64,000 bases of DNA from assembly GCA_000681355.2 (NCBI GenBank), contig JJNX02000001.1, positions 1-64,000 on the forward strand. The letters are read 5' to 3'. The stretch comes from Peptococcaceae bacterium SCADC1_2_3 (GTDB lineage Bacteria > Bacillota > Desulfotomaculia > Desulfotomaculales > Nap2-2B). Position numbers and translations under genes: made by a program. Numbering within the stretch: the stretch's first letter is position 1; each line of letters opens with the position of its first letter. This document shows, one piece after another, positions 46,112-64,000 of this stretch. The notes beneath the pieces are model-generated. The model was not told where the DNA came from. It made no database searches and worked only from the letters and a program-made list of their open reading frames with translations.

Positions 46112-47128
46112 TTAACAAATGCGAGGTAAAGGGGCGCCGGTTAGCATATTTATTTTTCTGGTGCCGCCAAAGGCGGTTTTTAAATATACATTACCCCGGG
46201 TGTTTTTTGCCGCCACTTCACCAACTATATTGGCTTGACTTCCCAATTCATCTTTTTTTAAAAGCTGAACGACTTTTTCTGCTTCTTCAGGGGCAACCAC
46301 AACTAAAAATTTCCCCTCATTAGCCAGATACAAAGGGTCTAAACCTAGAAAATCAGCTATAGTACGCACTGTTTCGTTTACCGGTATGTTTTCTTCTGCC
46401 AGCCAAAAATCAACCCGGGCTGCCTGGGCAACTTCTTTTAACACGGTGGCCAGACCGCCCCGGGTTAAGTCCCGCATAAATTTAATCCCGGTTGTTTCAT
46501 TTAAAAGCTTACCTATAAGCTGGTGGAGAAAAGCACAATCGCTTATTATTTGATTATTTAAACCCAGCCCTTCTCTTTGGGTTAGAATAGCTAAACCATG
46601 ATCGCCTAAACTCCCGTTAACAATTAATTTATCTTTTTCTTCTATGCGGTGGTAGCCTAAATCTACTCCTGCCGGAAGATAACCAATACCGGTGGTATTA
46701 ATAAATATTTTGTCGGCCTGATTACGGGGGACTACTTTGGTATCGCCGGCAATAATTTTTACGCCGGCCTCCTCACAGGTATGAGCCATTGAAGCAACTA
46801 TCTTTTCCAAATCCGCCATTAAAAGACCCTCTTCAATAATAAAGGCGGCCGTCAGGTAAAGTGGAATGGCGCCGCTTACGGCTAAATCGTTAATTGTACC
46901 GCAAATGGCGAGCTTACCAATATTCCCTCCCGCAAAAAAAATTGGGTCAACCACAAAAGAATCGGTGGTTAGCGCTAAGTTTTCCGACGCGCCGGGAAAA
47001 ATAGCCGCGTCAGAAAAAGTACCTAAAATTTCATTGTAAAAATAACGGGAAAAAAGCCCTTCAATAAGTTCATGGGTTAAAAGACCACCATCTCCGTGGG
47101 CCAACAAAATACTTTGGTTGTTTTGCAC
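46112..47128 (-). CDS. hypE: Hydrogenase maturation protein HypE
   Basis: This 338-residue protein of the AIR-synthase/PurM superfamily has GDGGLLTHELIEGLF at the start and ends in PRIC, the C-terminal cysteine that is carbamoylated by HypF and then dehydrated to a thiocyanate for [NiFe] active-site assembly. ATP-binding TGIGYLPAG and GDTKVVP are intact. HypE normally serves [NiFe] hydrogenases, yet here it follows the [FeFe] maturation genes and no hypF, hypC or hypD is in the window. It may serve a [NiFe] enzyme elsewhere. Confidence 0.9.
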   Translation of the reverse strand: MQNNQSILLAHGDGGLLTHELIEGLFSRYFYNEILGTFSDAAIFPGASENLALTTDSFVVDPIFFAGGNIGKLAICGTINDLAVSGAIPLYLTAAFIIEEGLLMADLEKIVASMAHTCEEAGVKIIAGDTKVVPRNQADKIFINTTGIGYLPAGVDLGYHRIEEKDKLIVNGSLGDHGLAILTQREGLGLNNQIISDCAFLHQLIGKLLNETTGIKFMRDLTRGGLATVLKEVAQAARVDFWLAEENIPVNETVRTIADFLGLDPLYLANEGKFLVVVAPEEAEKVVQLLKKDELGSQANIVGEVAAKNTRGNVYLKTAFGGTRKINMLTGAPLPRIC

Positions 47129-47207: not shown

Positions 47208-48617
47208 TTAAAAATATAAATCACGTTCCCCTTGCTCCAGCCGCTTTAATCTTTTTTCCGTTTCCCGGCGTACCGCCGGATTAGGAATTTCTTTTAGGTG
47301 TTCGGCAATTGTTTTCTCCCCTAATTCCTTTGTTTCTGGCGAGGCATAATCAAGCAAAAATTCTTTAAAAGTTAGAATAGCGTTAGGTTGACAAACATTT
47401 TGAATCTGACCACTCTTAGCTAAAGGCATAAACCGGTCCCCCGTGCGCCCTTTACGGTAACAGGCCGTACAAAAACTAGGAATGTAGCCTGCCAGGCAAA
47501 TACTCCGCAGTACTTCATCTGGGCTGCGTTGATCCTCGATCTGGAATTGACCTGTTAACGGTCCTTCTATTTCTTTATGATACCCTCCTACCCCCGTACA
47601 GGAACCGGCACTTAACTGGGAAATACCCAAAGATATTATTTCATCCCTAAATTCTGCCCGCTCCCTGGTGGATAAAATCATCCCCGTATAAGGAACCGCC
47701 AGACGAATAACCGCAACTAGCTTTTTAAAATCCTTATCGCTTACTAAAAAAGGAAAATATGCCAGGTCTACTCCAGCCGCCGGACGAAGTCTGGGAACAG
47801 ATATGGTATGGCACCCAACCCCGAAACGTTCCTCTAAATGTAAGGCGTGAAAAAGAAGCCCTAAGACCTCAAATTTATAATCATACAAGCCAAACAACAC
47901 CCCAAAACCTACGTCATCTATACCGCCCTCCATAGCCCGGTCCATAGCCGTAAGATGCCAGTCATAATCTTTTTTTGGCCCGGAAGGATGCACCATCTGG
48001 TAAGTAGGGCGGTGGTAAGTTTCTTGAAATAAAATATAGGTGCCAATGCCTGCTTCTTTTAATTTACGGTAGTTCTCTACCGTAGTAGCGGCAATATTTA
48101 CGTTAACCCGGCGAATGCTCCCCCTTTTTTCTTTGACGGCATAAATGATTTTTATTACCTCTAATATATAGTCAAGAGGACAATTTTTCGGGTCCTCCCC
48201 TACTTCTAAGGCCAGACGTTTATGGCCCATGGCTTCCAAGGCAATTACTTCTTTTTCCAACTCATCTAAATCAAGCCGGCAACGCTTTATTTCTTTATTA
48301 TCTTTCCTGTATCCGCAGTAAACACAGTTGTTAATACAATAATTGCTAATGTACAAAGGGGCAAAAAAGACCATCCTTTTACCGTATATACTCTTCTTTA
48401 CTTCATAGGCAGCCTCATAAATTAACCGTAAGGTATCTTCGTCCTCATTTTGGAGCAGTACGGCAGCCTCAAAAGGAGTAAGTCCTTTAGCATCTTTACC
48501 TTTGGCAATAATTTCCCGGACTAGGGCCACCGGTGCTTCTTTAGCTTTATCAAGTAAATCATAAATCACCTGCTCGTTAATAAAATCGGTTGTTTGGCTT
48601 AGTTCTTTAACTTTCAT
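47208..48617 (-). CDS. hydG: [FeFe]-hydrogenase maturase HydG (radical SAM tyrosine lyase)
   Basis: This 469-residue protein has the radical-SAM motif C94INNC98VYC101 and the C-terminal second cluster ligands CTACYRKGRTGDRF with a further Cys in NVCQPN. HydG splits tyrosine to CO and cyanide and delivers an Fe(CO)2CN synthon for the H-cluster. The gene starts two bases after the hydE stop. All cysteine ligands are present, so activity is expected. Confidence 0.95.
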   Translation of the reverse strand: MKVKELSQTTDFINEQVIYDLLDKAKEAPVALVREIIAKGKDAKGLTPFEAAVLLQNEDEDTLRLIYEAAYEVKKSIYGKRMVFFAPLYISNYCINNCVYCGYRKDNKEIKRCRLDLDELEKEVIALEAMGHKRLALEVGEDPKNCPLDYILEVIKIIYAVKEKRGSIRRVNVNIAATTVENYRKLKEAGIGTYILFQETYHRPTYQMVHPSGPKKDYDWHLTAMDRAMEGGIDDVGFGVLFGLYDYKFEVLGLLFHALHLEERFGVGCHTISVPRLRPAAGVDLAYFPFLVSDKDFKKLVAVIRLAVPYTGMILSTRERAEFRDEIISLGISQLSAGSCTGVGGYHKEIEGPLTGQFQIEDQRSPDEVLRSICLAGYIPSFCTACYRKGRTGDRFMPLAKSGQIQNVCQPNAILTFKEFLLDYASPETKELGEKTIAEHLKEIPNPAVRRETEKRLKRLEQGERDLYF

Positions 48618-48619
48618 TG

Positions 48620-49678
48620 TTACTCACATCCTTCTTTGTATTTTGGGCTGTGACCATAATCTTGCGCCACCCCTCTTCCTAACTGCCGGATAATATTAGA
48701 AATATTTGCCACGGATTCGGTTGTTTCCTCCGTAAGACAAATTTTATTAGGGTATATCTGGTAACGTTCTCTGTATTTAACCGGCGTTACATTGGGCATA
48801 ACTACATTAGCCCCGCATTGTAGGGCCATTTGCCGGCCTTGGGGGTGAATGCTGGCCAGTGCCGTGGTTGCCGGCAAATGCGTTAAAGGTAGAACAAGAC
48901 GCGTAATGGCCAGTACCTTTAAGGTAGTTTTTACTTCACCACCGACGCAATTTTTTAAAGGAGTTTGGTGATGGGGAATGAAAGGACCAATTCCGGCCAT
49001 CTCCACATCCAGTTCCCGCAATAAAAGAATATCGTCAGCCAGCGTCTCACAAGTCTGTCCAGGCAAACCAACCATATTTCCTGCCCCTACCTGAAACCCT
49101 AACTCTTTAAGCCAGTAAAGCCGTTTTATCCTACCGGCAAAAGTTGTACCGGGGCGCAGGCGGGAAAATAAATTGGCGTCAGTTGTTTCGTGTTTTAAAA
49201 GATAACGGTCAGCCCCGGCTTGTTTCATTAAACGGTAATCTTTTTTGGACCGGTCCCCAACAGATACGGTAACGGCTACGCCGGTTTCTGCCTTAAGGCG
49301 GGCTATAATTTGGGCCAGCATTTCTCCGGTATAAAAAGGATCTTCTCCCGACTGCAAAACTATCGTTTTAAGACCCAGCTTTGCCGCCTGATTGCCAGTT
49401 TTTATTATTTCTGACTCACTCAGGCGGTAACGGTCGAGTTTTTGGTTATCCCTTCTCAGGCCGCAATACAAGCAGTTCTTTACGCAATAATTAGAAAATT
49501 CAATGATTCCTCTTAAGTGCACCTCGTCTCCCACGTACTGGTAACGAACCTGATCAGCAAGCTTAAAAAGTAAAGAATCTTCTTCCTTACCAAGACTTAA
49601 AAGAGAGAGAATGTCTTCCCGGAGAAGGTTTTCGCCTCTGGTGGCCTTATTTAAGGTCTCCGGCATAACAACGTTCAT
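48620..49678 (-). CDS. hydE: [FeFe]-hydrogenase maturase HydE (radical SAM)
   Basis: This 352-residue protein has the radical-SAM cluster motif C65VKNC69LYC72. HydE acts on the HydG product to build the diiron precursor and its azadithiolate bridge. AGGAGG precedes ATG 49678, so the first 32 bases overlap the end of hydF; translational coupling is likely. The length is standard for bacterial HydE. Confidence 0.95.
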   Translation of the reverse strand: MNVVMPETLNKATRGENLLREDILSLLSLGKEEDSLLFKLADQVRYQYVGDEVHLRGIIEFSNYCVKNCLYCGLRRDNQKLDRYRLSESEIIKTGNQAAKLGLKTIVLQSGEDPFYTGEMLAQIIARLKAETGVAVTVSVGDRSKKDYRLMKQAGADRYLLKHETTDANLFSRLRPGTTFAGRIKRLYWLKELGFQVGAGNMVGLPGQTCETLADDILLLRELDVEMAGIGPFIPHHQTPLKNCVGGEVKTTLKVLAITRLVLPLTHLPATTALASIHPQGRQMALQCGANVVMPNVTPVKYRERYQIYPNKICLTEETTESVANISNIIRQLGRGVAQDYGHSPKYKEGCE

Positions 49679-50933
49679 CCTTTTCCTCCTCTGCTTCTTC
49701 CAAATTCTGGGCCGCCTCGGGAAATGGTGCCAGTGCCCGTTTTAAGATTCCGTGGACGTAAGCAATAAGCACCCCGTAGTTAACGATAGGCACCCCGGTG
49801 GCTTTAGCTTGCATAAGCCGGTGCAGCATTTCCTTGCGGTTAATCATACAAGCGCCACAATGGATGATTAGCTTATAATCCTTTAGGTTAGCCGGTAGTT
49901 CCAAACCACTCGCCCAGTTGAACTCTAGCGGTCCCCCCACAACTTGTCTTAGCCAGCGGGGAATTTTTACCGTGCCAATATCATCTTCCACCCGGTGGTG
50001 AGTACAGGCTTCGGCAATTAAAACCTTATCTCCCGGTTCTAGCTCTTCAATGGCTTTTGCACCGGCTACCAATGTTGGTAAATCCCCTTTGTAGCGGGCA
50101 AATAATATGGAAAAGGAGGTTAAGAGCACATCCTTGGGTGTGTCCGCGGCTACCTTTAAAAAAGCCTGAGAATCAGTAACCACCAGACGCGGTTTGCTTT
50201 TTATACCGGCCAGAGCTGCTTTTAATTCTCTTTCTTTAACCACTATAGCCAGAGCATCATGGTCTAAAATGTCCCGGATTGTTTGAACCTGAGGTAAAAT
50301 TAACCTTCCCTTAGGGGCAGCCAGGTCAATAGGCACCACCAGGACCACTGTATCTCCCGGTGAAATTAAGTCACCTAAAATGGTGGGAGTTACCCAATCC
50401 TTTGGTGCGGCTTTAATCATAGCTAATTTAAGCGCCTCAATTCCCTGTTTGGTTGAAGCACTGACGGCAACGACAGGCAAAACTAATTGTTTGCTTAGTA
50501 GGGGCGTTAAATTTTGCGCCTCTTGCGGATAAAGGTCTATTTTATTGAGCACCCCTATTACGGGTACGTTATTTTCTTTGGCCCGGGCAATAACCTCTTC
50601 TTCATAAATCCCGGCTTCTAAAGCCGGGTCTATAACCAGCAACATCAAATCTGTTTTTGCCAACACGGCTAAAGCTTTTTCAATGCGCAAAGCACCTAGT
50701 TGGCCCACGTCATCAATCCCGGCCGTATCAATAAGCACTACCGGGCCCAGGGGAAGTATTTCCATTGATTTATAAACCGGATCGGTGGTTGTACCCGGAA
50801 TAGCCGAAACAATTGCTATATTTTGGTTAGTTAAGGCGTTAATTAAACTGGACTTACCCGCATTACGGCGGCCAAAAATAGCAATATGCAAGCGGCTGCC
50901 CCGCGGCGTTTGATTTAAAGTTGTATCTGCCAT
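49647..50933 (-). CDS. hydF: [FeFe]-hydrogenase maturation GTPase HydF
   Basis: This 428-residue protein has a P-loop GTPase domain with GRRNAGKSS at 21-28 and NKIDLYP, and a C-terminal cluster-binding part with EACTHHRVEDD and IHCGACM, which supply the CxH...HCxxC ligands. HydF is the scaffold that carries the diiron precursor to apo-hydrogenase. The stretch EAQNLTPLLSKQ, just after NKIDLYP, is encoded by sequence matching a palindromic repeat found elsewhere in the window, so it is likely an in-frame insertion. The gene starts 58 bases after the aspartase stop, with another repeat copy between. Confidence 0.94.
   Translation of the reverse strand: MADTTLNQTPRGSRLHIAIFGRRNAGKSSLINALTNQNIAIVSAIPGTTTDPVYKSMEILPLGPVVLIDTAGIDDVGQLGALRIEKALAVLAKTDLMLLVIDPALEAGIYEEEVIARAKENNVPVIGVLNKIDLYPQEAQNLTPLLSKQLVLPVVAVSASTKQGIEALKLAMIKAAPKDWVTPTILGDLISPGDTVVLVVPIDLAAPKGRLILPQVQTIRDILDHDALAIVVKERELKAALAGIKSKPRLVVTDSQAFLKVAADTPKDVLLTSFSILFARYKGDLPTLVAGAKAIEELEPGDKVLIAEACTHHRVEDDIGTVKIPRWLRQVVGGPLEFNWASGLELPANLKDYKLIIHCGACMINRKEMLHRLMQAKATGVPIVNYGVLIAYVHGILKRALAPFPEAAQNLEEAEEEKDERCYAGDLK
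50498..50524. repeat. Palindromic repeat (GTAGGGGCGTTAAA family) inside hydF, copy 4
   Basis: The left half (GTAGGGGCGTTAAATTT) is exact and the right half is diverged (TGCGCCTCTT). It lies in the hydF coding frame after the NKID motif and adds about nine residues without breaking the frame. Confidence 0.75.
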
Positions 50934-52883: not shown

Positions 52884-54653
52884 TCAAGTACTTAAGACCT
52901 GTTCCTTATGCGGCAACTCCAAACCTCTTTTGGTATAATGGGTATGGAGAAGCTTATGAGATTTGTGCCCTAGCGGTTCCTTCAGAAATTTATCATAGGC
53001 TTCTTTAATAGCGGGATTTTCATGAGATTGACGGAATTCCCGTACTTCAGCGTCATCTAAATAAAGAGCCTCCGCACGAAGTATCCGGATTTCATTATTT
53101 GTAGGGATGGGTTCTCCACCGCCGGCTACACATCCTCCCGGGCAAGCCATAATCTCAACAAAATGATAACCGCTCTTTCCTTCCCGAATTTGGTCCATGA
53201 TTTTGCGGGCGTTCCCCAAACTATGGGCTACAGCCACCTTAACATTCCCTAGTTCTCCCACGGGAACTGTAGCTTCCTTCACTCCCTCCAGCCCACGTAC
53301 GGGCTTTATGTTAAGATCTTTCAGGTTTTCCCCTGTGACCACGGCATAAACGGTGCGCAGGGCTGCCTCCATAACACCACCTGTGGCACCGAAGATTGTG
53401 GCCGCACCCGTATATTGACCCATAGGAGCATCGTAAGCTTCATTAGGAAGATTGATAAAATCAATCCCCGCTTCTTTAATCATCCGGGCCAGTTCCCTAG
53501 TGGTTAACACGTAATCTACATCGCGGTACCCGCTATCGCACATCTCGGGTCTTTGAGCCTCAAATTTTTTTGCGGTACAGGGCATAATGGAAACCACCAC
53601 CATGTCTTTTGGATCAATGCCGGCATATTCGGCGTAATAAGTTTTCGCCATAGCTCCAAACATTTGCTGCGGAGATTTGCAGGTTGATAAGTGCTCCAAA
53701 AGGTCGGGATAAAAGTGCTCACAAAACTTTATCCATCCAGGACTACAGGAAGTAATCATAGGAAGTACTCCCCCTGTTTTGACTCTTTTCAGAAGCTCGT
53801 TTCCTTCCTCTATAATGGTGAGGTCGGCAGCAAAGTTTGTATCGAAAACCTTATCAAACCCGAGCCTGCGAAGGGCGGCAATCATCTTCCCTGTAACCAA
53901 AGAGCCGGGAGGCATCCCAAATTCCTCTCCCAAGGCAGCGCGTATAGCCGGGGCCTCTTGCACTACCACGTGCTTTGAGGGATCCTGAAGTACCTTACAA
54001 ACCTCGTCCACATCGTCTTTCTCGTAAAGGGCACCGACGGGACAGACCATAACGCATTGACCACAGTTAGTACAATTTGTCTCGTTAAGAGGAAGATTAA
54101 AGGCTGGCACCACTCTTACATCACTTCCTCTCCAGGCAGCAGTCAGGACATCAACTGTCTGAATAGATTCACAGACGGTAATGCAACGATGACAGTTAAT
54201 ACATTTTCTGCTATCCCGAACAATAGAAAGGCTAGACCGGTCAATCATTTCTTCGACGTTGAAAACAGGATATTCGAACCTCACTGTTTTTACGCCAACC
54301 TGCTCCGCCACCTTTTGAAGCTCACAATTACCGCCTCTGATGCAAAAATTGCACTCTGGTGGATGGTTTGCCAAAAGAAGCTCCACAGTCATTCTTCTTG
54401 CCTTGCGGACCCGCTCCGTGTTTGTCCGGACAACCATACCCTCATTAACAGGGTATACACAAGACGCAACCAGGTTAGGCATTTTTTCAACCTCTACAAC
54501 ACAAACCCGGCAAGCGCCAGGGGTGTGTTCAATCTCAGGATAGGCACACAAGGTTGGTATTTTAATGCCTGCTTTTTTTGCCGCTTCTAACACGGTGCTG
54601 TCCGGTTCCGCTTCTACTTTGATATTATCTATAGTTATGTTTACTGATGACAT
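52884..54653 (-). CDS. hydA: [FeFe]-hydrogenase catalytic subunit HydA (HydABC type)
   Basis: ATG 54653 follows GGAGAGGAGAA and gives 589 residues; the longer frame from 54740 lacks a good site. It has an N-terminal [2Fe-2S] ferredoxin domain (C36, C48, C51, C65), a His/Cys cluster region HPPECNFC, two [4Fe-4S] motifs (CINCHRCITVC, CTNCGQCVMVC), and H-cluster motifs: TSCSPGW at 301-307, MPCTAKKFE near 358 and ACPGGCVAGGG. The domain set matches catalytic subunits of NAD- and ferredoxin-dependent bifurcating hydrogenases. It lies 19 bases downstream of the fused flavin subunit gene. Confidence 0.95.
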   Translation of the reverse strand: MSSVNITIDNIKVEAEPDSTVLEAAKKAGIKIPTLCAYPEIEHTPGACRVCVVEVEKMPNLVASCVYPVNEGMVVRTNTERVRKARRMTVELLLANHPPECNFCIRGGNCELQKVAEQVGVKTVRFEYPVFNVEEMIDRSSLSIVRDSRKCINCHRCITVCESIQTVDVLTAAWRGSDVRVVPAFNLPLNETNCTNCGQCVMVCPVGALYEKDDVDEVCKVLQDPSKHVVVQEAPAIRAALGEEFGMPPGSLVTGKMIAALRRLGFDKVFDTNFAADLTIIEEGNELLKRVKTGGVLPMITSCSPGWIKFCEHFYPDLLEHLSTCKSPQQMFGAMAKTYYAEYAGIDPKDMVVVSIMPCTAKKFEAQRPEMCDSGYRDVDYVLTTRELARMIKEAGIDFINLPNEAYDAPMGQYTGAATIFGATGGVMEAALRTVYAVVTGENLKDLNIKPVRGLEGVKEATVPVGELGNVKVAVAHSLGNARKIMDQIREGKSGYHFVEIMACPGGCVAGGGEPIPTNNEIRILRAEALYLDDAEVREFRQSHENPAIKEAYDKFLKEPLGHKSHKLLHTHYTKRGLELPHKEQVLST

Positions 54654-54672
54654 CAATATTTTCTCCTCTCCA

Positions 54673-57600
54673 TTAAATTTCTGCATCACATCGCAGGCAG
54701 CGACACGCTTCCCGGATGGCCTCTTCCCGGATGAAACCAAGTTCTACTTCATCGAAACTATTTCGCCTGGCAGCACCTTTTATTTCCGGCATTTTTGTTT
54801 GAGGACATTCCTTTACCTCTTCATCGATGATAAGCGGGATGTCAATCTCCTTTTCCGAAGGTGCTTCATATAATGGTTCTCCATTGCTTATCCTGATAGT
54901 GTTATCAATATCTTTTGCCGCCCTATGTCCCGCGGCAATCGCCCCAATCACCGTATCCGGCCCTGTAACGGCATCTCCGCCCGCAAAGAATTTAGGATTT
55001 GTTGTTTGGGATTTACTCCCGCTTGCCAACTCAAAACAGTCCCATTTATTAACTTTCACGCCGCTATTATCAGGAACAAAAGTCAGATCTGATACCTGAC
55101 CGATGGCAGCGATGACAGTATCCACACTAAGCGTGAATTCGGAACCTTCAATAGATACAGGTTTTTTTCTTCCGCTTCGGTCAAAATCACCAAGCTTCAT
55201 CCGTTGACAGGTAATCCCACTTACCTTTCCATTGTCTTCGTCAATCTTAACAGGAGCCACTAAGTACTCAATCTTGACCCCCTCTTCTTCCGCCGCTTCA
55301 ATTTCCTCTATTGCCGCAGGCATATCTTGCCTTAGACGACGGTAAAGAATAGTAACTTCAACACCTAAACGAACGGCACAACGGGCGGCATCAATAGCTG
55401 AATTTCCACCACCAATTACGGCCACTCTTGCGCCAAGTGTTTTTTCACCTTTCAACCAGGCGTCTTCATAGGTATTAAAATCCCTTAGAAATTCAACCCC
55501 ACCATAAACGCCCTTGATGTCCTCTCCTTCAGCTCCCATTTTCTGGCTCTTATGCGCGCCAGGAGCTAAGTAAATATAATCGAATTCTTCGTTAACTTTT
55601 TCAAAAGAAATATTTTTTCCCACGCGCGTGTTGCACTTGATCTCCACGCCTAGCGCCCGAATGTTGTCAATCTCTTGACTCAAAATGTTGCGGGGAAGCC
55701 TGTAAGCAGGGATTGCCCAGCGAAGCATCCCCCCGGGTTCTGAAAGTTCTTCAAATACAACCACTTTATAACCCCGCTGCGCCAAGTCTCGCGCTGCTGT
55801 CAAACCGGCAGGGCCCGCGCCAACCACGGCAATCCTTTCTTTTCTGGTTACAGGAACCGGTTCTATTTTAGGTCTTGCCGCATTATCGGTAATAAACCGC
55901 TTTAGATGCTTGATGGCAACCGGCTCGTCCACCTGTCCCCTTCGACACTTTGACTGGCATTTGTGGTCACAAACCCTTCCGCAAACAGAAGGAAAAGGAT
56001 TGGTTTTTAGGAGAATCTTGTAAGCCTCTTCAAAACGTTCTGCCCGCACTAAAGCAATGTAAGACGGGATATCCATTTCAACCGGACAGGTATGCTGACA
56101 GGGCGACTTAAATAAAGCAGCACAAACTGCCGCGGGACAACGCTTATCCCTTATATGGGCCTCATATTCATCCCTGAAATAACGGATGGTACTCAAAACA
56201 GGATTAGGAGCCGTTTGACCAAGTCCGCAAAGGGCGGAATCTTTAATGGTTCTAGCCAGTTCTTCGAGAAGCTCAATATCCCCTTCTTTACCCTTTCCTA
56301 AAGTAATGTCGGTGAGGATCTCAAGCATTCTTTTTGTTCCCTCGCGACAAGGAGTACACTTTCCACAGGATTCCTCCTGACAAAATTCCATAAAGAAACG
56401 GGCCATATCCACGGCGCATTTGTCCTCATTCATGACAATCAAGCCACCAGACCCCATAATGGCTCCCAATTCTACTACGTTTTCATAATCAACCGGTGCA
56501 TTTAAATGCTGAACGGGAATACAACCGCCTGACGGCCCGCCCAATTGAGCGGCTTTAAACTTCTTTCCACCAGGGATACCCCCTCCGATATCATATACGA
56601 TACTTCCCAGGGTGGTTCCCATGGGAACTTCTACCAAACCAATATTATTTACATCGCCTGTCAAGGCAAAAACCTTGGTCCCTTTGCTTTTTTCCGTACC
56701 CACACTGGCATACCAGGCACTACCCCTTAATATGATCTGACCAATATTAGCTAAAGTTTCTACATTGTTTAAAACACTTGGTTTCCCCCACAGTCCTGAA
56801 ACAGCCGGAAAAGGGGGCCTTGGCCTGGGCATTCCTCTATTTCCCTCAATGGAAGTCATTAAAGCCGTTTCTTCCCCACAGACAAAGGCTCCCGCCCCCT
56901 GGTAAATTTCAAGATCAAAATCAAAACCGGTTCCTAAAATATCCTTTCCCAAAAGTCCATATTCTTTTGCTTGAGTGATGGCAATATTCAAACGTTGAAT
57001 AGCCAGTGGATATTCGGCACGACAGTAAATGTAACCTTGATGAGCATCAATAGCTTTAGCGGCAATAACCATACCCTCAATAACAGCATGGGGATCAGCT
57101 TCAAGGACACTTCTGTCCATGAAGGCACCAGGGTCACCCTCATCGGCATTACAAAGGACATATTTTACATCCCCCTTGGACTGGAAGGCAAACTTCCACT
57201 TAAGACCGGTGGGAAAACCTGCTCCGCCTCTTCCTCGTAATCCTGAGTCCAAAACTTCTTTGATAATTTCTTCTGAGGACATGTCAGATAAGGCCTTAGC
57301 CATCCCGGCATAACCATCCCTGGCAATGTACTCATCAATTTTTTCCGGGTCGATAAGACCTCTATTTCTCAATACCCTTAATTCCTGAAGAGCAAAAAAG
57401 GGTATCTCCTGCATGGTGGGAATGACTTCTTCTGTGGTTGGTTCTTTATAAAGGAGCCTCTGTAAAAGCCTTCCTTTAACGAGATGTTCTTCAACTAATT
57501 CCGGAATATCCTCTGGCTTGATCAACGTATAAATGACGCCTTCCGGATAGACCACCATAATAGGACCCAAGGCACAAAATCCATTACAACCAGTTTCGAC

Positions 57601-57729
57601 AATTTTAATTTCTTCTGAAAGATTTTTTTTATCCAGCTCGGCAATCAAAGCCTTCTTTACGGCAAGACTTCCAGAAGCATGGCAACCTGTTCCTCCGCAA
57701 AGCAATAAATGTGCACGAAACACCTTCAA
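54673..57729 (-). CDS. hydB: HydB (NuoF-like) flavin subunit fused to a GltD/NfnB-like module
   Basis: This 1018-residue fusion has these parts in order: a thioredoxin-like [2Fe-2S] domain (about 1-90, LLCGGTGCHASG with GCNGFCALG); a NuoF core with GRGGAGFPTGLKW, NADEGDPGAFMDR and SCGKCTPCREG; then, in place of the usual C-terminal ferredoxin domain, a GltD-type part beginning CQHTCPVEMDIP and CGRVCDHKCQSKC, with FAD motif VVGAGPAGLTAARD, NAD(P) motif VIGGGNSAIDAARC, and the tail ACRCLRCD. The second flavin domain suggests an added NAD(P)H site or electron path. No frameshift or stop divides the halves. It lies between the [2Fe-2S] subunit gene and hydA. Confidence 0.9.
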   Translation of the reverse strand: MKVFRAHLLLCGGTGCHASGSLAVKKALIAELDKKNLSEEIKIVETGCNGFCALGPIMVVYPEGVIYTLIKPEDIPELVEEHLVKGRLLQRLLYKEPTTEEVIPTMQEIPFFALQELRVLRNRGLIDPEKIDEYIARDGYAGMAKALSDMSSEEIIKEVLDSGLRGRGGAGFPTGLKWKFAFQSKGDVKYVLCNADEGDPGAFMDRSVLEADPHAVIEGMVIAAKAIDAHQGYIYCRAEYPLAIQRLNIAITQAKEYGLLGKDILGTGFDFDLEIYQGAGAFVCGEETALMTSIEGNRGMPRPRPPFPAVSGLWGKPSVLNNVETLANIGQIILRGSAWYASVGTEKSKGTKVFALTGDVNNIGLVEVPMGTTLGSIVYDIGGGIPGGKKFKAAQLGGPSGGCIPVQHLNAPVDYENVVELGAIMGSGGLIVMNEDKCAVDMARFFMEFCQEESCGKCTPCREGTKRMLEILTDITLGKGKEGDIELLEELARTIKDSALCGLGQTAPNPVLSTIRYFRDEYEAHIRDKRCPAAVCAALFKSPCQHTCPVEMDIPSYIALVRAERFEEAYKILLKTNPFPSVCGRVCDHKCQSKCRRGQVDEPVAIKHLKRFITDNAARPKIEPVPVTRKERIAVVGAGPAGLTAARDLAQRGYKVVVFEELSEPGGMLRWAIPAYRLPRNILSQEIDNIRALGVEIKCNTRVGKNISFEKVNEEFDYIYLAPGAHKSQKMGAEGEDIKGVYGGVEFLRDFNTYEDAWLKGEKTLGARVAVIGGGNSAIDAARCAVRLGVEVTILYRRLRQDMPAAIEEIEAAEEEGVKIEYLVAPVKIDEDNGKVSGITCQRMKLGDFDRSGRKKPVSIEGSEFTLSVDTVIAAIGQVSDLTFVPDNSGVKVNKWDCFELASGSKSQTTNPKFFAGGDAVTGPDTVIGAIAAGHRAAKDIDNTIRISNGEPLYEAPSEKEIDIPLIIDEEVKECPQTKMPEIKGAARRNSFDEVELGFIREEAIREACRCLRCDAEI

Positions 57730-57826: not shown

Positions 57827-58210
57827 CTACTTTATAATTTCTGCCCCTTTGGCCAGAACAAATGGGGTTTGAACCTCTCCCTGTAAAATATGTCTTTTGA
57901 AAACCTGTCTCATCTTGTTTGCATTCATATATTCGTACTTAATTGGCTCCTGTTCCATAGCTTCCACAGTAACCAAAGGTTCCCTGCTGCACAACCCCAT
58001 GCACCCAGATGTTGTCACCATAACATCCGTTACGCCTGCCTCCTCAATCTCCTGTATCAGCGCGCTCATAACCTCCCTTGCCCCGGAGACAATACCACAA
58101 GTTCCCATATGAACGGTCACCTTTACTCTCCAGGCACCATCTCTCAAGGAGGTTTCGGCGTGAACTTTTTCCTTGATCTTTCTTAAATCTTCTATCGTTA
58201 GCTTTGCCAT
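57827..58210 (-). CDS. Thioredoxin-like [2Fe-2S] ferredoxin subunit
   Basis: This 127-residue protein has a thioredoxin-like ferredoxin core: VHMGTCGIVSGAREVM followed by TTSGCMGLCSREP, giving four cysteines (one CG pair and C-M-G-L-C). An N-terminal helix of about 30 residues precedes the domain. It sits between hydC and hydB in the operon, a place found in other HydABC-type clusters, and likely conducts electrons between subunits. GGAGGGAAG precedes the ATG. Confidence 0.85.
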   Translation of the reverse strand: MAKLTIEDLRKIKEKVHAETSLRDGAWRVKVTVHMGTCGIVSGAREVMSALIQEIEEAGVTDVMVTTSGCMGLCSREPLVTVEAMEQEPIKYEYMNANKMRQVFKRHILQGEVQTPFVLAKGAEIIK

Positions 58211-58234: not shown

Positions 58235-58729
58235 TCAATTATATTGATTTAATATCTCCTTGATTTTTGTTGGTTTTACCCTTCCGTGAACATTGTCATC
58301 CACAAGAACCATCGGTCCTAATCCACAAGCACCAACACATCTAACTGTTTCATAAGTAAACATTCTATCAGCGGTCGTTTCACCTTTTTTCACCCCATAC
58401 TCCTTCTCTATTTTTTCAGCAATAGCTTTACCCCCTCGAACATAACAGGCCGTTCCCAAGCACACGCGTACCAAATGCTTACCCCGGGGAGTCATTGTGA
58501 AAAATGAATAAAAAGTCACTACTCCATAAACACGACTCAACGGAAGATTTAATCCTTCAGCGATTCTTTTCTGGACAGAAATAGGCAAATATTCAAGGGC
58601 TACCTGAACTTCTTCCAAGACCGGAATTAATCCTCCCGGTTTACCTTTGTACTTGTTGATAATTTCATCCATTTTTGCAATATGTTCCGAAGTAAATTCT
58701 TTCAGTAGATCACCGTCGGTTGCTTTCAC
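58235..58729 (-). CDS. hydC: HydC (NuoE-like) [2Fe-2S] subunit
   Basis: This 164-residue NuoE-family protein has the helical N-terminal part (GLIPVLEEVQVALEYLP), then CLGTACYVRGGKAIAEK and CVGACGLGPMVLVDD, whose four cysteines hold the [2Fe-2S] cluster. It is the small electron-transfer subunit of the complex and the first gene of the hydC-[2Fe-2S]-hydB-hydA set. AGGAGGAATAAG lies just upstream of the start. Confidence 0.92.
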   Translation of the reverse strand: MKATDGDLLKEFTSEHIAKMDEIINKYKGKPGGLIPVLEEVQVALEYLPISVQKRIAEGLNLPLSRVYGVVTFYSFFTMTPRGKHLVRVCLGTACYVRGGKAIAEKIEKEYGVKKGETTADRMFTYETVRCVGACGLGPMVLVDDNVHGRVKPTKIKEILNQYN

Positions 58730-58808: not shown

Positions 58809-59339
58809 TTATAAATTTTCGTCAAGATATATACGTAAAAACTTTATTATTTCTGGATGGTTTATGGGTACATCGCCCAACTGGGCCTTTATTTCTTTAG
58901 TATCCAGGATAAATCTATTACCATTTATTGTATAATGAAATTTAAAATCTACCTCTGGATTACTTATAACTGATACCAGGATGGTTTCTTTAATATTTCC
59001 CAATAATGGTAAATCAGGATGGTTCAAAACAAAGGAAGAATAAATTTCTGTACCTTTCCTCACCTTGCTTTTTAAATAAAAATTACCTCCGCAATGTTCT
59101 GCCGTACCCTTTAAAAGAGGAACACCTAGTCCTGTTTTCTTACCAGTTTTAGTTGAAAAAAAAGGGTCAACTACTTTTTTAGCCATCTCTTCTGACATCC
59201 CTTTTCCGTCATCCACTATCTTCATGGAAAGAAAATTTTTCTTGTTATCCCGCGTGATAAAAATACAAATATTTTTTGCTTCTGCCGTTAAAGAATTGGC
59301 TACAATGTCCATAATATGAACACAAATTTCATTTACCAT
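58809..59339 (-). CDS. GHKL ATPase-domain protein (histidine-kinase-like)
   Basis: This 176-residue protein has a stand-alone HATPase_c fold: N-box around DIVANSLTAEAKNI, G1 box KIVDDGKGMSEEMAKKV, and GLGVPLLKGTAEHCGG as the G2-like box, then a beta-rich C-terminal region (about 110-176) not typical of HATPase domains. It has no sensor, no dimerisation helix and no phosphoacceptor His, so it is not a complete kinase. It lies directly upstream of hydC in the same direction and is part of the sensory cluster. A partner domain from the hydrogenase-like protein upstream is plausible. Confidence 0.78.
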   Translation of the reverse strand: MVNEICVHIMDIVANSLTAEAKNICIFITRDNKKNFLSMKIVDDGKGMSEEMAKKVVDPFFSTKTGKKTGLGVPLLKGTAEHCGGNFYLKSKVRKGTEIYSSFVLNHPDLPLLGNIKETILVSVISNPEVDFKFHYTINGNRFILDTKEIKAQLGDVPINHPEIIKFLRIYLDENL

Positions 59340-59375
59340 AATTAATTAATCCTATCTTAAAATAAACACCTTAAG

Positions 59376-60113
59376 TTATTGAAACTCCAGATAACGCCCT
59401 TCTTCAAATTTTAAGGCTCTGGCTATTTCTTTAAAGCTCGGCTCTTTAAGATAAAAAACAGTTCTTCTTTTACCTATATCTATAAGGTAATGAGCATCAG
59501 AAAATGTAACAAAAGGAATACCTTTCGGGTTGACCAACGGTAAAAGTTCCTCTATTTTTTGCTTATTACGTACTTCTAAAGCATCAAAGGAAAGATTATC
59601 CGGTACATAACCCAGTTGACTGATAATACTAAAGGTCTGGCTATCTATATGAGAAGGAATTACCAGCCCCTCTTTTAACTTAACCCTGGAAACAGCATCT
59701 TCAAGTGAAATCTGGACGGAATTTAAAAGCAGCCTTTCTTCAAAGCGAATAATGTTACCATTTTCATCCACTACTACCTGGTCGCCAAAAAAAACCGGGT
59801 TATTTTTAACCGCTGGTAGGAATTCATAAATTTCTCTTTGAAAATCTAGAGCGGTCTTATAATTATCAAATAAAACTAAGAGATGAATTTCTTCCCTGGT
59901 TTGTATTTCCATACCAAATAGCACCACTAAACCAAGTTTTTTCCCTAACTCATGGACATAAATAGTATTTTCTACCATGTTATGATCGGTAATGGCAATA
60001 ATATCCAAGCCCACCTCTTTGGCCTTTTTAATAACATTTTGAGGAGACATTTCCAGGCTGGCACATGGTGAAAGGGTTGAATGGATATGAAAGTCACAAA
60101 AAAAGCCGGTCAC
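59376..60113 (-). CDS. PHP-domain phosphoesterase
   Basis: This 245-residue protein has the PHP motifs DFHIHSTLSPCASLEMSP, IAITDHNMVENT, IPSHIDSQ and FSDAHYLIDIG, with metal-binding His, Asp and Glu. Members hydrolyse phosphoesters, including those of nucleotides and oligonucleotides. It stands between a DRTGG protein (six bases upstream) and a GHKL ATPase (36 bases downstream) in one operon. Removing a nucleotide or phosphate signal is a possible role, inferred from the context. Confidence 0.85.
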   Translation of the reverse strand: MTGFFCDFHIHSTLSPCASLEMSPQNVIKKAKEVGLDIIAITDHNMVENTIYVHELGKKLGLVVLFGMEIQTREEIHLLVLFDNYKTALDFQREIYEFLPAVKNNPVFFGDQVVVDENGNIIRFEERLLLNSVQISLEDAVSRVKLKEGLVIPSHIDSQTFSIISQLGYVPDNLSFDALEVRNKQKIEELLPLVNPKGIPFVTFSDAHYLIDIGKRRTVFYLKEPSFKEIARALKFEEGRYLEFQ

Positions 60114-60119
60114 CTCTTA

Positions 60120-60476
60120 TTAACCTCTTTTTAAAGCATTATAAATAAGACCGCTAATTTCAAAGGCCGGGCGATAATCTCTTAAAATAGCAATATTTTC
60201 ACTTTTAGCTCTTTCAATAACTTCTTGTTCTAATTCAAGCTTACGCGGAATAATGATCGCGAGAATATCTCTGAGTTTGGCCACGCCTAAAACATTTACA
60301 TGTCTTTGGATGGTAATCCAGACGGAACCTTCTTCAATATTGGCGATAACATCAGACAAAAGGTCAGAAACGTATCCCGACTTTATTTCTTTGTCCAAGT
60401 TAACCTCACCGGTTAAAGTTTCAAAACCCAATAAATTAACCAACTCGCCAAGAGTCATTATTTTCCTCCTAAGCAA
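60120..60476 (-). CDS. DRTGG-domain protein, copy 2
   Basis: This 118-residue protein is a single DRTGG-type domain: LVNLLGFETLTGEVNLDKEI, then GYVSDLLSDVIANIEEGSVW, and LAIIIPRKLELEQEVIERA. DRTGG domains occur in HPr kinase-related and CBS-linked proteins as ligand-binding parts; the ligand is unknown. A second DRTGG gene lies at 62365-62724 in the same operon. The start may be the ATG at 60476 or at 60458. Confidence 0.78.
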   Translation of the reverse strand: MLRRKIMTLGELVNLLGFETLTGEVNLDKEIKSGYVSDLLSDVIANIEEGSVWITIQRHVNVLGVAKLRDILAIIIPRKLELEQEVIERAKSENIAILRDYRPAFEISGLIYNALKRG

Positions 60477-60511
60477 TATTTATTTATGACTATTTAGGGG
60501 CCCTCTTTTGT

Positions 60512-61882
60512 TTATTCGTTAACCTTTTCTTTTTTCTTTCCCTTTGCTTTTGATGAGTTACTAACCATTGCCGGAGGCATTTTACGCGCTAAATCAAGTA
60601 CTTCTTCGGCTAAGGTTTGTACTCTTTCCCTTAACTTAAAAATACAATCAGTGTCAACAGCCAAACCCCGGATAACGTCCTCGGCCAAGGCCCGGCAGCT
60701 TGGTGCGCCACAGGCGCCACAGTCCAGACCAGGTAGTTCGTTAGTTATTTTATCTAAACGTTCCATTTTAAGCAGTGCTTTGGATACGTCTTCATCAAGC
60801 ATCATTACTGGTCTGGGCAGGATAGGTTCGGTAGAAAAAAACCTGCCTTGTTGGTAAAAATCCAACATATCTTTTTCCTGGTAATACGGCGTTTTTGCCC
60901 GGTACTTTTCAACAAAATATTTTAACTTTACCCTTCCTACAAATGGATTTTGTATACTTAAGGGACCGCCTACGCACCCCCCGGTACAAGCCCGGAGTTC
61001 AAGAAAATCAACATCTCTTAATTCGCCCCTTTCTATTTCTTCCAATAAACTTACCACATTATGAATACCGCAAACTGCTAAAATTGAACCATAATTCAAC
61101 GCTTTAGCCTCTCCGGTAATGTAACCCCAGGACATTCCAAGGCCAGTTGCTTTTTGTAAATTCTTATTTTTCTCTTTTTTATGATTTTTAGCTAATTGCT
61201 TAAGTATATCTTTGTATACCAAAGACATATTAATAACTCCATCAACGGCGGAATTTTTTATACCCGTAGGCTGTGTCATCTCGGTCACTTTAGCCGGACA
61301 AAGTGAAATAGCAAAAGCACCAATATCTTCATAAGGAATACCCTTTCTTTTTACGGCCTCTTCCTTAGCTATCCTGGCAGCTATTTCTCTAGGAGTCATA
61401 AAAGGAGATACTTGGCTTAAAAGATCGGGAAATTTAATTTGCATTAAACGTAAAACAGCAGGACAGTATGAAGAAATAAGCGGTTTTTTATACTTATTTG
61501 TACTTAAGTAATGACGGGTCATAAAAGATACTACTTCTTCTGCCAAAGCAACCTCAAAAACATCATCAAAACCGATGTTTAAAAAAGCGTCAAGAATGTT
61601 TTCCACGCTTTCCTCTTCTTTAAATTGGGCGTAAAATGTAGGACCTGGAAGAGCAATCTTATACTTAAATTCGGAAAGTTTGTCCAAGGTATCGGTAACC
61701 GCAATTTTAGCGTTATAAGGACAAACCCGGATACAATCGCCGCAATCAATGCATCGTTCTCCTATTATATGGGCTTTACCGTCGTGAACGCGAATAGCTT
61801 CTGTAGGGCACCTTTTAATACAATTTGTACAACCCATACATTTTTCATAATCAAGGGTTATTGAATGAAAGTAACTAGACAT
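60512..61882 (-). CDS. [FeFe]-hydrogenase-like protein lacking the proton-relay cysteine (putative sensory HydS)
   Basis: The 456-residue protein has two [4Fe-4S] motifs (C15, C18, C21, C25 and C44, C47, C50, C54), then a hydrogenase H-domain: SSYCPAVLRL at 137-146, SLCPAKVTEM near 193 and ACTGGCVGGP. All four Cys expected to hold the H-cluster cubane are present, but the first Cys of TSCCP, the proton relay, is Tyr139. A C-terminal CGACGAPSC...C motif supplies another [4Fe-4S] site. This pattern resembles putative sensory (group C/D) [FeFe] hydrogenases. It lies between DRTGG and GHKL genes, upstream of hydABC. Confidence 0.82.
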   Translation of the reverse strand: MSSYFHSITLDYEKCMGCTNCIKRCPTEAIRVHDGKAHIIGERCIDCGDCIRVCPYNAKIAVTDTLDKLSEFKYKIALPGPTFYAQFKEEESVENILDAFLNIGFDDVFEVALAEEVVSFMTRHYLSTNKYKKPLISSYCPAVLRLMQIKFPDLLSQVSPFMTPREIAARIAKEEAVKRKGIPYEDIGAFAISLCPAKVTEMTQPTGIKNSAVDGVINMSLVYKDILKQLAKNHKKEKNKNLQKATGLGMSWGYITGEAKALNYGSILAVCGIHNVVSLLEEIERGELRDVDFLELRACTGGCVGGPLSIQNPFVGRVKLKYFVEKYRAKTPYYQEKDMLDFYQQGRFFSTEPILPRPVMMLDEDVSKALLKMERLDKITNELPGLDCGACGAPSCRALAEDVIRGLAVDTDCIFKLRERVQTLAEEVLDLARKMPPAMVSNSSKAKGKKKEKVNE

Positions 61883-61906
61883 TAAACTACTCCTACCTTA
61901 ACTTAT

Positions 61907-62368
61907 TTAATCTTTGGAAGACAAATAAACTATTGCCTCCAAAACCGTACCTACTCCTACCTGAGACTTAATATTTAATTTATGGGAACATTGTTTAATA
62001 TTAGGTAAACCCATTCCTGCTCCAAAACCCATTTCCCGTACCTCATGGGTCGCAGTTGAGTATCCTTCCTTCATGGCCATTTCTAAATCAGGAATTCCCA
62101 TTCCTGTATCTTCCGTTAAGACAACCACCTTCTCGGGAACAATAATTACTTCAAGCTCTCCGTGGGTAGCGTGAATAATAACATTCATTACGGCTTCATA
62201 AACGATGATGGCTATATTTCTAACTTCCTCCGGCCTTAAACCCAACTGTTGCAGTGTTTTTTTAACCTTTGAAGCTGCCTCTCCGGCTACACTAAAATCT
62301 TTTTCTCCTATCTTAAACTCTAGCTTAAACTGCGGTTTGCTATCTGCTTCTTTGTCCGGGTGGTTCAT
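61907..62368 (-). CDS. GHKL ATPase / anti-sigma-factor-like protein (RsbW/SpoIIAB-type)
   Basis: ATG 62368 shares an ATGA overlap with the DRTGG gene upstream and gives 153 residues. It has an N-box around YEAVMNVIIHATHGE, G1 box VVLTEDTGMGIPDLEMAM, and GFGAGMGLPNIKQCSH. The RsbW/SpoIIAB-like branch of HATPase proteins phosphorylates an antagonist or binds a sigma factor. No STAS antagonist or sigma gene is near, so the partner is unknown. It is the second GHKL protein of the sensory cluster. Confidence 0.82.
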   Translation of the reverse strand: MNHPDKEADSKPQFKLEFKIGEKDFSVAGEAASKVKKTLQQLGLRPEEVRNIAIIVYEAVMNVIIHATHGELEVIIVPEKVVVLTEDTGMGIPDLEMAMKEGYSTATHEVREMGFGAGMGLPNIKQCSHKLNIKSQVGVGTVLEAIVYLSSKD

Positions 62369-62724
62369 TGAGTAGAGTCCCTCATGCATCCCTGAAGTCC
62401 GTTCGTAAAAAGCAAACCGCAACACTTAAACATTAAAAAGGGGGTAGATAAAAGAGGAATATAGCTTGCTTCAGCTTTTTTAATTATTTCTTTTGCCGGT
62501 CGTTTCCCTCCTACAAACACTACTCCCACGGCATCCATTATTTCGGCGGTATGAATTACATGTTCATTAATAAGGGAAGTAATTAAGAGAGTATGAGAAC
62601 CGGCAAAAGCCAACATTTCACTCATCAGGTCACAACCAAATCCGGTCTCTGCTTCCCGCTCCAGTAAGTGCTCGCCACAAAGCACTTCAGCCTTAAGAAT
62701 CTTTTGGATGTCTTTTAAATTCAT
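62365..62724 (-). CDS. DRTGG-domain protein, copy 1
   Basis: This 119-residue DRTGG-type domain has MNLKDIQKILKAEVLCGE, CDLMSEMLAFAGSHTLLIT and VVFVGGKRPAKEIIKKA. The C-terminal stretch MFKCCGLLFTNGLQGC is unusually rich in cysteine (three), perhaps redox-active or metal-binding. It overlaps the following ATPase gene by four bases (ATGA), a strong sign of coupling. Its ligand is unknown. Confidence 0.78.
   Translation of the reverse strand: MNLKDIQKILKAEVLCGEHLLEREAETGFGCDLMSEMLAFAGSHTLLITSLINEHVIHTAEIMDAVGVVFVGGKRPAKEIIKKAEASYIPLLSTPFLMFKCCGLLFTNGLQGCMRDSTQ

Positions 62725-62787: not shown

Positions 62788-64000
<1,213 letters not shown>

Follow-up and report, generated by a model that had tools for sequence, protein, structure and literature searches.

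Results

The six-gene cassette

We analysed a window of 64,000 nucleotides from Peptococcaceae bacterium SCADC1_2_3 (contig JJNX02000001.1, positions 1 to 64,000), focusing on six minus-strand genes that precede hydC, a subunit gene of an NADH-dependent [FeFe] hydrogenase. A first-pass annotation had read these genes as a putative H2- or redox-sensing relay. All six open reading frames were recovered over the span given there, and Pfam agrees with their assignments, for the second DRTGG protein through its orthologues. In order of transcription the cassette encodes DRTGG1 (62365..62724; Pfam DRTGG, 1.4e-8), the SpoIIAB/RsbW-type ATPase GHKL1 (61907..62425; HATPase_c_2), the putative sensor HydS, which resembles [FeFe] hydrogenases of Group D (M2e) type (60512..61882; two Fer4 domains, Fe_hyd_lg_C and FeS), DRTGG2 (60120..60476; 20.9 bits against a cut-off of 25.2, with orthologues above the cut-off), a PHP-family phosphoesterase (59376..60113; Pfam PHP) and GHKL2, in which a HATPase_c domain is combined with a conserved C-terminal domain (58809..59339; AlphaFold2 model with a predicted local distance difference test score, pLDDT, of 92). 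GHKL1 probably starts at the ATG at 62368. Its start would then overlap the DRTGG1 stop codon as ATGA, and its aligned homologues start at the equivalent of 62368 or later.

HydS contains two N-terminal 4Fe-4S motifs followed by the H-domain and a C-terminal cluster (Pfam and alignment), and a Pfam scan found no PAS domain in the protein. Residue conservation was examined in 182 non-redundant loci, comprising those from a genome scan and those from two whole-genome searches. The cubane ligands C140, C195, C299 and C303 are each kept in at least 181 of them, which confirms the cubane cysteines described earlier and gives no sign of the ligand loss that would speak against an H-cluster. The C-terminal Cx2Cx4Cx16C motif (C388, C391, C396 and C413) is present in 180 of the 182 loci, the remaining two having gaps. 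By motif context, E258 (176/182) and E295 (182/182) are the equivalents of E252 and E289, the proton-path glutamates of the Group D enzyme TamHydS (PMC10407848). Land et al. (2020; PMC8163306) characterise Group D by its cubane ligands, the Cx2Cx4Cx16C motif and the lack of a PAS domain. On the basis of these features, HydS would be placed in Group D (M2e), a known set of putatively sensory [FeFe] hydrogenases.

One detail of the first-pass annotation had to be dropped, namely that a Tyr at the site of the proton-relay Cys marks a sensory [FeFe] hydrogenase. At the position of C299 in CpI, Tyr139 occurs in five of the 182 rows, all from the window genus or its near-identical relative L052, and Ala (124) and Ser (46) are commoner. 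We rejected Tyr139 as a mark of sensory hydrogenases; these counts make it genus-specific. The relative L052 is labelled Deltaproteobacteria SURF_34. Its cassette HydS is 83% identical to that of the window genus, and it is probably a misbinned contig or a recent transfer.

The ATP site of GHKL1 is complete, with N-box residues E77 and N81 (each 91/92), D106 in a D106xGxG motif (92/92) and a GFGAGMG segment. In the PDB and NCBIfam the protein is closest to SpoIIAB/RsbW (SpoIIAB 1til/1th8, E 2.5e-12). In the genome, whose assembly is about 90% complete, SpoIIAA was the only STAS protein detected, and it is encoded in a spoIIAA-spoIIAB-sigF operon; because this separate operon exists, GHKL1 was rejected as the SpoIIAB of the organism. 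The catalytic residues of GHKL2 are invariant in the conservation alignment. The HATPase domain is the only one that Pfam assigns to GHKL1 and to GHKL2, neither of which has a HisKA/DHp phospho-acceptor. No receiver domain was found in the cassette, and the Pfam scan detected no DNA-binding domain in the six proteins.

Both DRTGG proteins share a D..S..T motif, which is invariant in DRTGG1 (D32, S35 and T49, 83/83) and in DRTGG2 (D38, S41 and T55). The DRTGG1 model (AlphaFold2, pLDDT 92) matched 2ioj, 3l2b and HPr kinase in Foldseek, and its fold is like that of AF1212 and of the DRTGG domain of CBS-pyrophosphatases; the fold also occurs in the N-terminal domain of HPr kinase. In the PHP protein all metal ligands (H9, H11, D43, H44, E69, H77, H155, D206 and H208) are invariant in 66 of 66 sequences. 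So is C17 in the metal-site loop (HxHxxLSPC), a residue that could be redox-sensitive.

Conservation and fusion of the cassette genes

The genome scan yielded 80 loci, mostly from Clostridia with a few from Spirochaetes, Armatimonadetes and Coprothermobacter. In 179 of the full set of 182 loci, GHKL1 precedes HydS in the same orientation (one of the three exceptions, L089, starts at a contig edge), and 141 show the exact order DRTGG1-GHKL1-HydS-DRTGG2-PHP. PHP is present in 152, some of its absences being contig ends. Among 300 genomes of the phylum, HydS occurs in 118 (39%), GHKL1 in 124 and both in 117, so that only seven of the 182 genomes without HydS carry GHKL1; GHKL2 accompanies HydS in 116 of the 118. 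Had the genes not been conserved together, the relay proposed in the first-pass annotation would have lost its basis, but the fixed order and the tie between HydS and GHKL1 (117/118) show the opposite. The gene set is conserved widely among anaerobic bacteria and is not a chance association. HydB-type complexes are present in 242 of the 300 genomes, twice as many as the cassette, so their assembly does not depend on it.

Several neighbours are also found as single proteins. DRTGG1 is fused to GHKL1 in 13 loci from at least three families, HydS to DRTGG2 in two genera, and PHP to GHKL2 in five genomes; where separate, DRTGG2 often directly adjoins HydS. In L052 a DRTGG1-like domain is attached to the C-terminus of HydS. 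Single-instance fusions could be assembly errors, which is unlikely for the repeated ones. The link between HydS and the GHKL and DRTGG proteins that had been proposed is therefore upheld as gene linkage, and in the fusions as a physical connection; its other half, a classical anti-sigma/STAS output, is unlikely for reasons given in the Discussion.

GHKL2 and the hydrogenase operon

Downstream of GHKL2 lie hydC (58235..58729, minus strand like all genes below; thioredoxin-like [2Fe-2S] subunit, Pfam 2Fe-2S_thioredx), hydX (57827..58210; small thioredoxin-like [2Fe-2S] protein in the HydD position, weak Pfam/NCBIfam matches), hydB with a C-terminal GltD-like NAD(P)-binding extension (54673..57729; NCBIfam nuoF_fam and PRK12771) and hydA, encoding an NADH-dependent group A6 [FeFe] hydrogenase (52884..54740; NF040763 above cut-off). 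In other loci GHKL2 usually lies inside this operon, as hydC-GHKL2-hydX-hydB-hydA, and the order HydC-GHKL2-HydX was found in 62 of 68 loci. In 14 loci hydC and the HydS unit are divergently oriented; nine of these place GHKL2 with hydC, and in the other five it is fused to PHP. GHKL2 thus belongs to the hydABC operon at least as much as to the HydS unit. The first-pass annotation had regarded the two GHKL proteins as duplicated partners of one sensor. Only GHKL1 is a near-obligate partner of HydS; since GHKL2 usually travels with hydC, hydX, hydB and hydA, we rejected the idea that both genes serve HydS equally.

Loci that have lost cassette genes follow the same line. In L362 and L364, GHKL2 and DRTGG2 stay with hydCXBA although HydS and GHKL1 are absent. 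In the single-contig genome G124 (L363:4165-5927), HydS and PHP are only fragments and GHKL1 is essentially gone, and DRTGG1, DRTGG2, GHKL2 and hydCXBA are intact beside these decayed genes. Together with the divergent loci, L362 to L364 indicate a natural split into an input part (DRTGG1, GHKL1 and HydS) and an enzyme-side part (DRTGG2 and GHKL2), with PHP between them. A comparable arrangement is known from Acetobacterium woodii, where HydE (Awo_c27000), encoded between HydC and HydD, bears the annotation 'sensory transduction histidine kinase' (PMC10472528). GHKL2 takes the place of this protein between HydC and HydX (HydD) in the A. woodii hydCEDBA arrangement, an equivalence drawn from position and annotation only.

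Exchange of the putative sensor

Seven genomes carry GHKL1 without HydS, and in three of them (G192, G346 and G215) GHKL1 is extended at its N-terminus. Extended copies are also found in a second cassette of two genomes that do have HydS (G300 and G364). In all four copies tested with Pfam (L244, L245, L248 and L255) the extension consists of two CBS domains, and in L246, L247 and L256 it is CBS-like by sequence resemblance. The cassette without HydS is otherwise complete, with the order DRTGG1-[CBS-CBS-GHKL1]-DRTGG2-PHP-GHKL2. An extra copy in G192 and G346, DRTGG1-[CBS-CBS-GHKL1]-HydX, heads an rnf-like operon (L244:6160-9725; L246:6628-9891), in which RnfC was identified by Pfam and the remaining rnf genes by size and order. 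In the GHKL1 tree the CBS forms are placed among HydS-linked sequences and are not separated from them; support is weak, and one or two origins fit. A CBS pair has no redox chemistry, and nothing argues more strongly for a sensor slot occupied by HydS than this replacement. The exchange supports the view that the cassette is a modular signalling unit in which HydS would be a replaceable sensor.

Genomic surroundings

On the 3' side of the cassette the genes follow in the order hydC, hydX, hydB, hydA, aspA (named by eye), hydF, hydE, hydG and hypE. The maturation genes hydF, hydE (radical SAM) and hydG span 47208..50933 and score above cut-off (TIGR03918, TIGR03956 and TIGR03955). Adjoining hydG, a gene for HypE, a maturation protein of [NiFe] hydrogenases, lies within this [FeFe] hydrogenase operon (46112-47128). 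The window HydB is a GltD-like fusion of 1018 amino acids, and a form of about 1000-1050 amino acids also occurs in other relatives. Directly upstream of DRTGG1 is a gene for an NfnB/GltA-like subunit (62788..63999; NCBIfam PRK12778/gltA), with an NfnA-like gene next to it past the end of the window (L033 12207-13052). In several members of the taxonomic order, a LysR-family regulator gene adjoins hydA (four loci; L041:2771-3688, L042:2935-3843, L043:1062-1991 and L045:16994-17908) and adjoins HydS in another (L048:11006-11923). A search for Rex-like sites gave five matches with at most three mismatches, one of them upstream of hydC, which is chance level, and matches in promoter and terminator scans were likewise at chance level.

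Discussion

A proposed modular route from sensor to hydrogenase

We consider it rather probable that the six genes form a modular cassette in which HydS provides the input, GHKL1 the switch, and DRTGG2 and GHKL2 the output acting on the hydrogenase complex. This model is based on the co-occurrence and fixed order of the genes, the fusions, the CBS exchange, the decay pattern in G124 and the invariant catalytic residues. It also draws on the fusion of other [FeFe] H-domains to output domains and on TamHydS, a slow enzyme with a proposed sensory role (PMC8163306). HydS would sense H2, a redox state equilibrating with H2, or both, and would contact GHKL1 directly, probably through its C-terminal [4Fe-4S] domain. 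GHKL1, as an ATPase or kinase, may then act on the DRTGG proteins, which would serve as substrate or ligand-binding switch; the D..S..T residues most likely mark the site at which they are phosphorylated or sequestered in an ATP-dependent manner. The PHP phosphoesterase may reset or end the signal, and DRTGG2 and GHKL2 would carry the output to the neighbouring hydrogenase complex, more likely acting on the enzyme than on DNA. We infer H2 as the ligand of HydS, the direction and chemistry of signal transfer, and HydABC as the target.

Several points weigh against this model. A fusion of GHKL1 to HydS was seen once, in a single metagenome-assembled genome. Since some cassettes have no hydABC genes within about 9 kb, the target could be something other than HydABC. 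Shared ancestry inflates the p-values for co-occurrence, and the counts were relied on instead. In mean-field direct coupling analysis of the paired alignments, which was underpowered (effective number of sequences, Neff, 90-128), inter-protein pairs were not clearly above the permuted ones; the pair DRTGG1 38 - GHKL1 69 alone stood out (z 7.2 against a permuted maximum of 6.1), a weak signal that we did not use as evidence. Finally, we infer both phosphotransfer by GHKL1 and a response of HydS to H2, and the role given to the HydS C-terminal cluster is an assumption.

Other explanations of the gene set differ mainly in the output. The likeness of GHKL1 to SpoIIAB/RsbW, and the LysR genes near hyd genes in several relatives, would suit classical partner switching, where GHKL1 as anti-sigma factor and kinase sequesters a sigma factor that is freed by an unphosphorylated antagonist, giving a transcriptional output. 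The anti-sigma-like output of the first-pass annotation was of this kind. We find it unlikely because the lone STAS protein detected is SpoIIAA in its own operon and the cassette proteins lack a DNA-binding domain. Moreover, no sigma factor or DNA-binding gene belongs to the cassette in the loci inspected, and after loss of HydS it is with the hydABC structural genes that GHKL2 and DRTGG2 remain. Just as improbable, in our view, is a second-messenger system in which PHP makes or destroys a nucleotide (e.g., a diadenosine or phosphonucleotide compound) bound by CBS or DRTGG domains, the GHKL proteins being ATP-gated effectors without protein phosphorylation. The full metal set of PHP agrees with it, as do the joint presence of DRTGG and CBS in nucleotide-regulated CBS-pyrophosphatases and the use of CBS domains as input in place of HydS. 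On the other hand, PHP occurs in only 152 of 182 cassettes, even if some absences are contig ends, no ligand was seen, and GHKL1 retains an intact kinase-type ATP site.

Two further explanations concern HydS itself, and we give them little credence. HydS could be a catalytic subunit exchanging electrons with HydABC or ferredoxin, with GHKL, DRTGG and PHP as regulatory extras. Its proton-path glutamates are conserved, and TamHydS is described in PMC8163306 as a reversible, though slow, hydrogenase. Such a role is hard to reconcile with the presence, in related cassettes, of a redox-inert CBS pair in its place, with stand-alone cassettes lacking hydABC nearby, and with a near-fixed tie to GHKL1 and not to hydABC. 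Least probable, by a small step, is a machine for [FeFe] hydrogenase assembly or repair, in which the GHKL proteins would be chaperones and HydS would be the scaffold from which the H-cluster is delivered. The adjacency of hydF, hydE and hydG in the window and in several relatives would fit, but HydEFG suffice for heterologous [FeFe] hydrogenase maturation, HydB-type complexes are more frequent than the cassette (242 against 118 of the 300 genomes), and CBS cassettes without HydS adjoin rnf.

Comparison with known systems

The closest described protein is TamHydS from Thermoanaerobacter mathranii, with which HydS shares the domain order, the lack of a PAS domain, the Cx2Cx4Cx16C motif and the E252/E289 equivalents (PMC8163306 and PMC10407848). 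It also shares the location upstream of hydABC beside a histidine-kinase-like ATPase (PMC8163306; PMC3608648). The window genus differs at the position of CpI C299, where it has Tyr and most sequences have Ala or Ser (Ala being typical of Group D); it further has Leu-Cys and not Pro-Cys before the MPC-type ligand. Group C enzymes (TmHydS, HydS-PAS-histidine kinase) are similar in the H-domain, the C-terminal cluster, the missing proton-relay Cys and the proposed H2 sensing. However, they contain a PAS domain, and their output is either covalent or of the two-component kind, whereas the window HydS has neither and is accompanied by separate GHKL and DRTGG partners. GHKL1 has the fold and ATP site of SpoIIAB/RsbW, but where those systems employ SpoIIAA/RsbV STAS proteins and SpoIIE/RsbU phosphatases, the cassette lacks a dedicated STAS protein or PP2C phosphatase and has DRTGG and PHP in those positions. 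The CBS-DRTGG-DHH family II pyrophosphatases share the DRTGG fold and the CBS/DRTGG pairing; in the cassette these domains reside on separate proteins, and a GHKL ATPase stands where the pyrophosphatase would be.

H-domains joined to other outputs were found as well. Proteins of 732-754 amino acids (L029:508-2706, L030:1408-3672 and L368:5623-7887) combine Fer4, an [FeFe] H-domain, FeS, a sigma-54 AAA+ activator and a Fis-type helix-turn-helix domain, for L030 and L368 as judged by sequence resemblance. The L368 protein is encoded directly upstream of a hydC-hydB-hydA set without GHKL2 or HydX. Such proteins are possibly one-component H2-sensing transcription activators. In L067 (10410-12323) an [FeFe] H-domain is fused to a methyl-accepting chemotaxis protein signalling domain beside a GHKL1-HydS pair, and a CheW gene adjoins another such pair (L085:8065-8532), which makes H2 chemotaxis a possible function. 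L257 has an [FeFe] H-domain fused to a PAS-histidine kinase, beside a sigma-54 response regulator. The window system is a variant that uses separate GHKL, DRTGG and PHP partners rather than fused outputs.

According to the first-pass annotation, no route from such a sensor to hydABC had been described. The gene neighbourhood itself had been noted before: Verbeke et al. (2013; PMC3608648) report that in all Thermoanaerobacter the genes upstream of hydABC include one for a histidine kinase and one for a group D hydrogenase, and PMC8163306 mentions a histidine-kinase-like ATPase neighbour. The HydS type, its location beside hydABC and the adjacent kinase-like ATPase are thus already known, and no mechanism is given there. 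The accessible literature yielded no account of the full cassette, the fusions, the division into input and output or the CBS/rnf version; subscription papers, including Calusinska 2010, lie outside it, and a prior description is possible.

The cassette names candidate partners for signalling by PAS-less Group D enzymes, whose route is called open in PMC8163306. The fusion proteins can be expressed directly, and the swap of hydrogenase for CBS makes the logic testable. We tentatively suggest, although we hold it to be somewhat doubtful, that an undescribed class of cassettes acts at the protein level to control enzymes that conserve energy between ferredoxin and NAD(P), with copies at hydABC or rnf and a sensor slot filled by an [FeFe] hydrogenase (for H2 or redox state) or a CBS pair (for adenylate or another nucleotide). 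The cassette has the look of a control module that can be reused among energy-conserving enzymes, and an output on HydABC or Rnf, if there is one, would account for a post-translational control of H2 and ferredoxin metabolism in many Clostridia.

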